From Reichenbachiella agariperforans (lineage in GTDB: Bacteria; Bacteroidota; Bacteroidia; Cytophagales; Cyclobacteriaceae), in contig NZ_FRAA01000001.1 in NCBI RefSeq assembly GCF_900142205.1, positions 464,803-528,802 of the forward strand: 64,000 bases of DNA, given 5' to 3'. Positions 36,711 to 43,279 of the stretch are shown in pieces (within the stretch, counting starts at the first letter, position 1; every line of letters begins with the position of its first letter). The notes under the pieces are model-generated. The model was not told the DNA's origin and searched no databases. It saw nothing but the letters and a program-made list of their open reading frames with translations. The position numbers and the translations under genes were made by a program.

Positions 36711-38342
36711 ATGGCAAAGGATATATTTTTCAACACTGACGCTAGAGACAAACTAAAAAAAGGAGTTGATCTACTAGCAGACGCTGTAAAAGTAACATTA
36801 GGCCCTAAGGGTAGAAATGTAATACTTGATAAGAAATTTGGCGCACCGACAGTGACCAAAGATGGCGTATCAGTAGCCAAAGAAATCGAACTAAGTGAGC
36901 CAATCGAAAACATGGGCGCACAGCTCGTGAAAGAAGTGGCTTCTAAAACTGCTGACGATGCAGGTGATGGTACAACTACCGCTACTGTATTGACTCAGGC
37001 ACTTTTCGGTCACGGGATCAAAAACGTAGCTGCAGGTGCTAACCCGATGGATCTCAAAAGAGGAATCGATAAAGCAGTAGCTACTGTCGTAGAAAACCTC
37101 AAAAAACAATCTAAAGAAATCAAAGGCTCTGAAGAAATCGCTCAAGTAGCCACTGTATCTGCTAACAACGATGCTGAAATCGGTCAAATGATCGCCAATG
37201 CAATGGACAAAGTAGGTAAAGATGGTGTCATCACCGTCGAGGAAGCCAAAGGAACTGAGACCGAAGTTAAAACTGTAGAAGGTATGCAGTTTGACAGAGG
37301 ATATCTTTCTCCTTACTTTGTGACTAACACAGAGAAAATGGAAACTGAGCTAGAGAATCCTTACATCTTGATCTACGACAAGAAAGTCTCTACGATGAAG
37401 GAATTGCTCCCTGTACTCGAAGCTACATCTCAGCAAGGACGTCCACTATTGATCATCGCAGAAGATGTAGATGGTGAGGCTCTAGCGACATTGGTAGTCA
37501 ACAAAATCAGAGGTTCTCTCAAAGTAGCTGCTGTCAAAGCACCTGGCTTTGGTGACAGAAGAAAAGCTATGTTAGAAGACATCGCAATTTTGACTGGTGG
37601 TACTGTCATCTCTGAAGAAAGAGGATACAATCTAGAAAACGCTACTTTGGAGTACCTAGGTACTGCTGAGAAAATCAACATTGATAAGGATAACACGACT
37701 ATCGTAAACGGTGCAGGTGCTGCAGCGGATATCGAAGCACGTGTCAACCAAATCAAGCAGCAGATGGAAAACACTTCGTCTGACTATGACAAGGAAAAAC
37801 TACAAGAGCGTCTAGCCAAATTGGCAGGTGGTGTAGCGATTCTTTACATCGGTGCTGCTACTGAGGTAGAGATGAAAGAGAAGAAAGACAGAGTAGACGA
37901 TGCACTACACGCTACTAGAGCTGCTGTACAAGAAGGTATCGTAGCAGGTGGTGGTGTTGCACTGATCAGAGCGATCGCATCACTAGATGGATTGACTTTG
38001 GAAAACGAAGATCAAAACACAGGTGTCAATATCGTAAGACTAGCAATCGAATCTCCATTGAGAACGATCGTGAGCAATGCAGGTGGCGAGCCTTCTGTAG
38101 TCGTCAACAAAGTAAGAGAAGGTAAAGGTGACTATGGTTACAACGCTAGAACAGACGTCTATGAAGAGATGTTCAAAGCAGGTATCATCGACCCTACCAA
38201 AGTGACTCGACTGGCACTAGAGAATGCGGCTTCTATCGCAGCGCTACTATTGACTACTGAAGCAGCAGTAGCAGACAAGCCTGAAGAAGGTGGTGCTCCA
38301 GCTATGCCTCCTATGGGCGGCGGCATGGGCGGCATGATGTAA
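36711..38342 (+). CDS. groL: Chaperonin GroEL
   Basis: 543-residue cytoplasmic chaperonin of the usual length, with [18 protein letters not shown] and [11 protein letters not shown] near the start, the ATP-site [13 protein letters not shown], and the Gly-Met tail [11 protein letters not shown]. It is complete and in frame. Its last ~200 bases plus the terminator are repeated at 43002-43279 with only synonymous changes and one 12-base deletion, so this gene borders a probable insertion. Confidence 0.98.
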
Positions 38343-38431
38343 TATCAACAGCCTTTTCGTCCGACAGGTTAGTACGGACATCTAGTTATATATCAAAGCT
38401 CAGACATTCAATTGTCTGAGCTTTTTTTTGT
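38141..38431 (+). repeat. Direct repeat, copy 1: groEL 3' end plus terminator
   Basis: 291 bases covering the last ~67 codons of groEL, its 3' UTR and terminator. Copy 2 (43002-43279) begins at the same CAACGCTAGAAC and ends at the same T-run plus GT. The copies differ at a handful of bases, one of the terminator T residues and a 12-base deletion in the Gly-Met tail. Confidence 0.95.
38395..38429 (+). terminator. Rho-independent terminator of the groESL operon
   Basis: Perfect 12-bp stem (38395-38406 with 38413-38424), 6-base loop and eight T residues. Confidence 0.9.
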
Positions 38432-38711
38432 ACCAATGAGCAACCCTACGATATGCGCTAACAGTACCAAATGATTTTCGAGAAGCTAGGTTATAATCGT
38501 CATACGCTGAAACGACAATGGAGCTATCAGCGAACCCCCTTACGGTAAGAGTTGGGAGCACTCTACAGACTGCCCGACTTCAAGAATACCCCGACGCTAA
38601 ATCGAGGTATTAAATGGAATAGATTTCTATTCGACGCAGAGCGCAGGGAAACTTCTTCCGTCGTAGCGTGAACACGAAGGAGAGTTAACCCCAACAGGCT
38701 ATCTCCTACAA
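38432..38711. other. Non-coding segment with REP-like paired hairpins
   Basis: The start of the unique DNA between the two groEL repeats. It is GC-richer than its surroundings and has no credible gene. AATACC-C-CGA (38585-38594) pairs with TCG-A-GGTATT (38602-38611) with one mismatch, and GAATAGA/TCTATTC (38617-38632) follows at once. Paired dyads followed by a GC-rich stretch recall REP-type elements, but no second copy is seen in this window. Confidence 0.4.
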
Positions 38712-39305
38712 TTAAAATCGATAACTTAAAGCGACAGTGGTATGAAACCATAACCCTACACTATAGTCATCTACAGTGTCTTCCTCAAAGGTCGTCAACC
38801 ATATAGCGCCTAATCCTCCTGATACATCTAGCCCCCATCTTTCTCTATAAACTCTTTTCATTCCCCAGGTAGGCATAGCAGTAATCGCATAAAAATGATC
38901 ATCATTAGCCAGCCCAAAATCTTTCATCATCGTAATGAATTCAAATTGAGCATATCTAGCTTCTGTCCTGAGTGAGAAATAATTACCACTATTGTAACCT
39001 ATATTTCTCCCTGTCCTCATTCGCTTTTCTAGGTTATAATAAAACCTTGGTTCTAACATCATTTGGTAGCCCTTCATATTCATTGACTTGATAAATATCG
39101 TATGCTCGTAAGCGGCTTGCGTCATCAAAGTCCAGCGCTTGGCTATTTTAAATTCGCTCTGAAGCCCGATTTGAAAAAGTATCCCTGTGTATCCGATCAT
39201 GACATGGTTGACATGGCGTGTCACCATAGCCACTGTGTCGGACTGTGCCATGGAGGAAAAGCTTAAAAGAAACAATGTGGCCACTACTGTTAGTACCTTC
39301 TTCAT
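38712..39305 (-). CDS. Predicted outer-membrane beta-barrel protein
   Basis: 197 residues with a signal peptide ending SSMAQ. The mature part alternates hydrophobic and polar residues with aromatic ends (RWTLMTQAAYEHTIF, YFSLRTEARYAQFEF, LWFHTTVALSYRF), and the last residue is Phe after an aromatic strand, as outer-membrane barrels usually end. No enzyme motif is seen. It is the last gene of the minus-strand cassette between the groEL repeats, 45 bases after the propeller lipoprotein. Confidence 0.68.
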   Translation of the reverse strand: MKKVLTVVATLFLLSFSSMAQSDTVAMVTRHVNHVMIGYTGILFQIGLQSEFKIAKRWTLMTQAAYEHTIFIKSMNMKGYQMMLEPRFYYNLEKRMRTGRNIGYNSGNYFSLRTEARYAQFEFITMMKDFGLANDDHFYAITAMPTWGMKRVYRERWGLDVSGGLGAIWLTTFEEDTVDDYSVGLWFHTTVALSYRF

Positions 39306-39350
39306 CTTAGTTGGTGTTTAGGTTGTTAAAATACGGTTTACTATATATCA

Positions 39351-42893: not shown

Positions 42894-42922
42894 TTTTAAA
42901 TACAGCATAAATATGCCTTAAA

Positions 42923-42953
42923 CGAAGTTACAAATAAAAATGACTGAAACAAA
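42923..42953 (-). promoter_or_regulatory. Promoter of the minus-strand cassette
   Basis: On the minus strand TTTG (42950-42953), exactly 19 bases, then TAACTTCG (42923-42930). This is the Bacteroidota -33/-7 arrangement with one change in the -7 box. It drives the lipoprotein-hydrolase-propeller-barrel unit and lies inside the unique DNA, so the cassette brings its own promoter. Confidence 0.6.
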
Positions 42954-43001
42954 CACATCTATAAAATCTAACGGTTTTATATCAAATAGACGTTTTTAGC
43001 C

Positions 43002-43191
43002 CAACGCTAGAACAGACGTCTATGAAGAAATGTTCAAAGCAGGTATCATTGACCCTACCAAAGTGACTCGACTGGCACTAGAGAATGCGGCTTCTATCGC
43101 AGCGCTACTATTGACTACTGAAGCTGCAGTAGCAGACAAGCCTGAAGAAGGTGGTGCTCCAGCTATGCCTCCTATGGGCGGCATGATGTAA
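43002..43191 (+). pseudogene. groEL 3' fragment (remnant, 62 codons plus stop)
   Basis: Reads in frame as the GroEL C-terminus from [18 protein letters not shown] to a shortened PPMGGMM tail and a TAA. It lacks any start and the rest of the gene. The differences from groEL itself are synonymous, apart from a 12-base in-frame deletion. That pattern means the fragment was recently part of a working groEL, not a long-decayed copy. Confidence 0.93.
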
Positions 43192-43279
43192 TATCAACAG
43201 CCTTTTCGTCCGACAGGTTAGTACGGACATCTAGTTATATATCAAAGCTCAGACAGTCAATTGTCTGAGCTTTTTTTGT
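43002..43279 (+). repeat. Direct repeat, copy 2: groEL 3' end plus terminator
   Basis: Second copy of 38141-38431. It starts abruptly inside a codon of groEL and includes the whole 3' UTR and the terminator hairpin (43244-43255 with 43262-43273, seven T). Together the repeats bracket about 4.57 kb of unique DNA (38432-43001). Confidence 0.95.

Follow-up and report, generated by a model that had tools for sequence, protein, structure and literature searches.

Background

How does a small island enter a chromosome when it brings no recombinase of its own? The question is raised by a 64-kb stretch of the genome of Reichenbachiella agariperforans (below, the window), in which a cassette of four genes, those of a lipase and a beta-propeller protein among them, lies between two copies of the 3' end of groEL. 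For small islands without a recombinase the entry route has been mostly guesswork. Here a common footprint is seen in three clean cases whose cargo is related, and for two of these the empty site is found in congeners; this makes the entry route testable and opens for study how a cassette travels without its own recombinase. A preliminary description of the window had proposed that an incoming element recombined at the groEL 3' end, restoring the gene on one side and displacing a fragment to the other, by homologous exchange or through an integrase since lost. Our argument is built on the duplication itself, on the empty site, on the polarity of the changes between the copies and on the recurrence of the footprint with related cargo. 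In our opinion, it is rather probable that the cassette was inserted by illegitimate recombination with duplication of the target 3' end.

The duplicated end of groEL

The two copies of the groEL end with its terminator (Table 1) differ by 4 substitutions in 276 aligned positions, which corresponds to 98.6% identity. Given as upstream/downstream bases, these are 38168 G/A, 38189 C/T, 38264 A/T and 38407 T/G. All three coding differences are synonymous third-position changes in the groEL frame, while the fourth substitution lies in the terminator loop; the downstream copy also has an in-frame gap of 12 bp within the Gly-Gly-Met tail. Both copies retain the strong hairpin and the T-run following it, and there the homology stops, the runs differing in length by one T. 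Beyond both ends of the repeat the flanks are unrelated, since 598 and 781 of 1000 shuffled sequences score as high or higher. Hence the preliminary description was correct about the shared start and end points, and about the synonymous changes and the in-frame deletion.

This is the sole direct repeat reported by self-BLAST of the window (E 1e-4), and it has two matches in its own genome, a 5.03-Mb draft in 21 contigs. In a draft, an assembly misjoin could produce such a picture, but the differences between the copies and the synteny on both sides argue against it. A short inverted pair, TAGACGT / ACGTCTA, spans the right junction at 42987-43022; by a rough post hoc estimate such a pair is expected by chance at about 1% per junction.

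The empty site and the polarity of the changes

Seven congeners, one genome per species, were compared over 16-kb stretches. In three of them (G003, G005 and G001) the site is empty: groEL, terminator and spacer are followed by algE and the gene of a methyl-accepting chemotaxis protein, without the repeat and without the cargo. The other four have neither the algE-like porin gene nor the chemotaxis gene in these stretches. None of the four cargo proteins was seen behind groEL in any of the seven, and the GroEL C-terminus has a single match in each. A profile search of the same congeners found no full-length lipase of the cassette family, only two short matches (E about 1e-6, in G004 and G006). 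More widely, the last 67 residues of GroEL match in 374 of 390 family genomes; among the matches listed, only our genome has a short extra copy near groEL (further genomes have two or three matches, which were not inspected individually). The claim of an insertion, and the check for an empty site in relatives that was proposed along with it, are thus borne out in three of the seven congeners.

The same three relatives give the polarity of the changes. The ancestral state is found in the upstream copy at 38189 and in the presence of the 12 bp (by all three relatives each) and at 38168 and 38407 (by two of three each), while the downstream copy has it only at 38264 (three of three). The upstream 3' end is nearer to the ancestral groEL, which answers the second check proposed earlier, and the geometry is the predicted one, with the whole gene left of the cargo and the displaced 3' fragment right of it.

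It is a different matter whether the gene was restored by a foreign 3' end. The nearest congener differs from the repeat stretch by about 12%, the copies from each other by 1.4%, and with only 4 differences in 276 positions both copies stem from one genome, or from genomes almost alike; this part of the earlier claim we do not uphold. Plain duplication of the target accounts equally well for the low divergence of the copies. By the same comparison the duplication would be recent when set against the divergence of the species, provided that the copies were not kept alike by gene conversion. As for the synonymous-only pattern, three of three by chance has a P of 0.015-0.019, and two changes in the non-gene copy have a P of about 0.06 (our own arithmetic). 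This is weak evidence for an incoming foreign 3' end, too weak to serve as proof of a foreign allele, and we dropped it in that role.

The same footprint behind other genes

We compared 19 lipase loci, about 268 kb together, each with itself, and looked for direct repeats that were 75 bp or longer, 90% or more identical and separated by more than 2.5 kb. In 5 of the 19 the cargo is flanked by such repeats. A control of 34 loci (403,346 bases), which had been fetched for other reasons and is not a random sample, holds one comparable pair, in L159; that pair overlies the end of a transposase-like open reading frame (ORF), which we take to be a REP-type transposase. After scrutiny three cases are clean, the window included: groEL, the ftsZ terminator and the 3' end of a MazG-like gene.

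In genome G765 (locus L105) the 78 bp behind ftsZ, up to the terminator T-run, are repeated to the right of the cassette, before an S9 peptidase gene, and this repeat has two matches in the genome. The ftsZ region has a match in 10 of the 11 congeners, and in these 10 it was examined. Five have ftsZ directly beside the S9 gene, with a BLAST match to the repeat between them in four of the five, and none of the 10 regions has a match to the ORF in the lipoprotein position of this cassette, to the N-terminal piece of its lipase or to its propeller. A second match in G489 was considered as a further insertion and rejected, because it is situated immediately beyond the S9 gene. In the cassette beside ftsZ the lipase is broken into two ORFs (L105 7610-9099), so this cassette may be decaying.

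In G175 (locus L080) the last 96 bp of the MazG-like gene occur a second time beyond the cassette. There are two matches in G175 and one in each of nine congeners. Taking the three cases together, the cargo is found in either orientation with respect to the target gene, and two of the three duplications end at the terminator T-run. The T-run may mark the exit point, for which three cases are only a hint. In L076 a pair of the same size class lies inside a propeller array and does not flank the cargo.

How did the cassette enter?

We propose that the four-gene lipase/propeller cassette entered behind the groEL terminator in an event of illegitimate recombination, in the course of which the 3' end of groEL was duplicated together with its terminator. 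The left copy would have remained the working groEL, and the right copy would be a remnant drifting before algE. The incoming DNA may have been inserted by homology-facilitated end-joining, or a template switch may have returned about 290 bp upstream; either of the two would account for a target duplication of 78-288 bp with the gene whole on one side. The arrangement in the window, with unrelated flanks outside the repeat, is compatible with homology-facilitated insertion. The differing targets, both orientations, the lack of a recombinase in the cargo and the lack of terminal inverted repeats beyond the terminator argue against a single integrase or transposase. Indeed, of the hallmarks of transposons and insertion sequences we found at the ends only one inverted pair, which is the palindromic terminator itself, and the duplications, at 78-288 bp, are not short and fixed.

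Several observations weigh against this proposal. No donor molecule or intermediate was found, and 14 of the 19 lipase loci have no flanking repeat. Among the 10 ftsZ regions the S9 gene is 2-3 kb away in two and is not in the stretch in three, and in the MazG-like case the far neighbour is not syntenic in congeners. A locus without a known cassette, L177, has an 81-bp direct repeat, 96% identical (5324-5404 and 7475-7555), whose copies are 2.2 kb apart, below our spacing cut; repeats of this type imply that the footprint may not be special to lipase cargo. Two of the five flanked loci were lost on scrutiny. At L077 the repeats are in shuffled order and look like mobile-element debris (the ORFs beside them are presumably transposase pieces), and they were not counted. 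At L101, rejected as a fourth clean case, the flanking repeat is part of a conserved element that recurs at several places of a congener's genome: it has one match in five of nine other genomes of the genus and two in G665 (three places in a later comparison), a further genome matches in the flank only, and two have no match. Three places in L174 (3823-3940, 5520-5575 and 12824-12939) match this conserved 120-bp intergenic sequence. Rfam gave no match in five related loci, the L101 copy included.

Other routes deserve to be weighed against the insertion with target duplication. A circle from a near-identical strain, carrying the groEL 3' end, the terminator and the cassette, could have entered through one RecA-mediated crossover within the repeat (Campbell-type integration). 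This would yield exactly the arrangement observed, the low divergence fits a conspecific donor, and the three synonymous coding differences could be allelic. However, the donor circle must already have held the groEL-cassette junction, which moves the question one step back, and the ftsZ and mazG footprints would each require a separate donor circle; we consider this route unlikely. Still less can be said for a cassette native behind groEL, with a tandem duplication and then a deletion leaving the second 3' end. Tandem duplications are common, but the site is empty in three congeners, no full-length family lipase was found in the seven, and two events would be required, with the deletion ending at the T-run; in our judgement this is very improbable.

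Tyrosine recombinases integrate islands at the 3' ends of genes, leaving the gene whole and a displaced 3' end on the far side, as at icd and tRNA sites. The window has this usual geometry, which is the strength of the earlier suggestion of a lost integrase. On this view, a site-specific element whose attP mimicked the groEL 3' end would have been integrated and its integrase later lost. Unlike such islands, ours has no integrase that we could find and no constant attachment site. Pfam shows no recombinase among the four cargo proteins, in agreement with the preliminary description, which saw none in the sequence, and related cassettes sit, in both orientations, between duplicated ends of different genes (groEL, the ftsZ terminator, the MazG-like gene), while copies 98.6% identical would hardly be a mimic from another host. 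There is a precedent for integration at groEL: in excerpts of the sources, phage Bxb1 places foreign DNA in groEL1 of Mycobacterium smegmatis (PMC9262239, PMC3642061). That is the work of a serine integrase with small att sites (attP 48 bp, attB 38 bp), and the gene is inactivated, whereas in our case groEL is whole beside a repeat of 276-288 bp, and we found no integrase. All in all, a lost integrase seems to us a quite unlikely explanation.

The mechanism that we prefer, illegitimate recombination with target duplication, has a close parallel in the clusters of the type VI secretion system (T6SS) of Vibrio cholerae. In the portions of the papers available, a module enters there beside a conserved anchor by homology-facilitated illegitimate recombination (PMC5361080, PMC9711863), the old downstream gene is pushed behind the new module, and orphan immunity genes stand in arrays, retained behind the displaced effector (PMC5361080). 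The difference is that the anchor here is the 3' end or terminator of a housekeeping gene (groEL, ftsZ, MazG-like) and the remnant is that 3' end; nor is a secretion cluster seen beside the cassette of the window. The cassette also resembles the small variable segments, as far as they are described in part of PMC2884548: small insertions without known mobility genes, some flanked by direct repeats, which are attributed to illegitimate recombination. Ours is likewise small and without known mobility genes. However, 66-94% of the repeats flanking those segments are shorter than 30 bp, whereas here they are 78-288 bp long and consist of a gene 3' end or terminator. Once in place, the cassette might, in principle, be lost again through RecA-mediated excision at the groEL repeat.

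The cargo between the repeats

The cargo consists of four long minus-strand ORFs in the operon order lipoprotein, lipase, propeller, barrel. The DNA between the copies had been called unique and credited with its own promoter. The four-ORF cargo agrees with the former, with the exception of its left edge: 38498-38549 and 38632-38715 are short repeats with copies elsewhere in the genome (contigs C9, C15 and C21), which have no match at E 0.001 in the seven congeners. The promoter we could not establish. The Bacteroidota -7 promoter motif is TAnnTTTG, and the minus strand of 42851-43060 has no such box, only three loose TTG-N-TAnnT matches.

In the lipase, Ser81 of GHSMGG, Asp362 and His392 are invariant in 7 sequences. 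The propeller lipobox was read from the sequence of the window cassette only. A sequence search of the PDB yielded a single weak match (E 0.019), and the structure models of the lipase (mean predicted local distance difference test score, pLDDT, 32.3) and of the lipoprotein (37.6) were too poor and were not used. A tandem 15-bp unit lies at 42861-42890, directly upstream of the lipoprotein start.

Table 1. Features of the groEL region of the window and of the second lipase/propeller module
Feature	Position	Strand	Basis
groEL, intact (543 aa), with near-ancestral 3' end	36711..38342	+	ORF list, comparison with congeners
Upstream copy: duplicated groEL 3' end, terminator hairpin and T-run	38141..38428	+	Repeat search, alignment
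Left cargo edge: short interspersed repeats	38498..38715	+	Matches elsewhere in own genome, none in 7 congeners
Small outer-membrane beta-barrel-like protein (DUF3575)	38712..39305	-	Pfam PF12099, E 3.1e-5
PQQ/BamB-like beta-propeller protein, lipobox LAGC, candidate immunity lipoprotein	39351..40694	-	Pfam; lipobox read from sequence
Alpha/beta-hydrolase (LCAT-like lipase), GHSMGG, Ser81, likely Asp362 and His392, Sec-type signal	40651..41922	-	Pfam; signal read from sequence, no predictor
Putative lipoprotein, first gene of operon, no Pfam match	41930..42850	-	ORF list, Pfam
Displaced groEL 3' fragment with terminator, 12-bp deletion, mostly derived changes	43002..43277	+	Repeat search, alignment
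Alginate-export-like porin, first native gene right of empty site	43657..44943	+	Pfam, congener comparison
Orphan lipase C-terminal fragment without nucleophile Ser (second, divergent module)	48926..49081	+	Profile/sequence comparison
Propeller gene of orphan module, 30% identical to first, TTG start only	49122..50378	+	Sequence comparison
Two small beta-barrel-like ORFs of orphan module (50332-50961, 50963-51511)	50332..51511	+	Sequence comparison

Orphan fragments and the function of the cargo

There are six lipase C-terminal fragments without the nucleophile, in five loci (the window, L076 twice, L080, L084 and L107). Each of them precedes a near-complete propeller gene, and the arrays hold up to three propellers. 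In L080 the fragment shares 87% identity with the end of the resident lipase, versus 42% between the two adjoining propellers. In L076 the lipase C-termini are 94 and 84% identical, versus 82 and 57% for the propellers; over both loci the ranges are 84-94% for the lipase C-termini versus 37-82% for the propellers. The window's own fragment belongs to a second lipase-propeller-barrel-barrel module on the plus strand (48914-51511), about 6 kb from the first, which is truncated and divergent and looks like an orphan remnant. A hairpin at 49088-49141, with 26-bp arms and -41 kcal/mol, overlaps the signal-peptide codons of the orphan propeller, leaving the TTG start alone.

Effector remnants ahead of a retained downstream gene are an arrangement known from toxin/immunity systems, and the propeller would be the immunity gene. 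The lipase would then act as an effector and the propeller lipoprotein as its immunity protein, with relatives spreading and piling up as orphan arrays. From the gene arrangement, to which we owe the idea of the lipase as a weapon, it seems permissible to speculate that the cargo is an effector/immunity-like module of this kind, at odds somewhat short of even. In excerpts of the sources, the Tle/Tli lipase pairs of the T6SS are similar in that a lipase gene adjoins the gene of a membrane-anchored lipoprotein (PMC9860674, PMC11470151), downstream of the lipase in the case of Tle1 (PMC9860674); one Tli is an ankyrin-repeat protein (PMC11470151). Our cassette likewise has a GxSxG lipase and an adjacent membrane-anchored partner, the propeller being next in 16 of 16 loci. 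What sets the cassette apart from those pairs is the Sec-type signal of its lipase and a beta-propeller as the partner.

Three points tell against a weapon. The Sec-type signal, as read from the sequence, would argue against T6SS delivery. In the window, the orphan fragment is 42% and the orphan propeller 30% identical to those of the cassette. In the part of a 2012 survey of polymorphic toxins available to us (PMC3482391), beta-propellers are not found among immunity proteins. We also recognised no description of a lipase with a beta-propeller immunity protein in a literature search that covered part of the matching publications.

The cargo could be instead an ordinary secreted lipid-degrading operon, and the fragments plain gene decay, a reading to which we give close to an even chance and which concerns the cargo only. 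The Sec-type signal on the lipase and the outer-membrane barrel partner fit it, and there is no secretion-system part among the 7 proteins scanned with Pfam and no PADLOC match for nine proteins. What it does not explain easily is that short 3' lipase pieces recur, each before a near-complete propeller, in arrays of up to three propellers.

That lipase/propeller modules are, in general, recombinase-less mobile weapon cassettes of Bacteroidota, entering behind housekeeping genes and copying the 3' end or terminator to the far side, is a doubtful extension which we offer for discussion. If there is such a recombinase-less class, the host gene stays whole and the duplication is a ready repeat pair for later excision. 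If the effector/immunity reading is right, beta-propellers would be added to the known folds of immunity proteins.

Distribution and gene order

The lipase searches covered samples of 196 family genomes (with a single sequence) and 395 phylum genomes (with a profile). The distribution is patchy: 14 of the 196 match, our genome included, the weaker matches sharing the serine motif only, and so do 14 of the 395, again with our own. From the phylum, 11 of the 13 loci outside our genome were taken (G464 and G539 were left out, as was the weak family match G172). A scan of genome contigs gave three loci, including Marinoscillum pacificum and an Ekhidna metagenome-assembled genome. There was no match in phages and one in a plasmid.

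Loci were scorable if they held a lipase and the sequence continued beyond it. In all 16 scorable loci of scattered relatives, one of them on the Fibrella plasmid, the next same-strand match after the lipase is the propeller gene; 9 of the 16 were not used to build the propeller profile. Outside this count are L079, L108 and L109 (contig ends), L082 and L083 (the same loci as L074 and L075), L084 and L107 (fragments only) and L110-L116 (serine-motif matches or no match). The full order lipoprotein-lipase-propeller-barrel is conserved in L074 and L075, and the Fibrella plasmid has lipoprotein-lipase-propeller adjoining tra genes.

In the window as a whole, tRNA and Rfam scans found nothing, and the guanine-cytosine content gives no sharp island signature. 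Long perfect or near-perfect hairpins, perhaps terminators, lie at 59460-59510 and 17470-17525.

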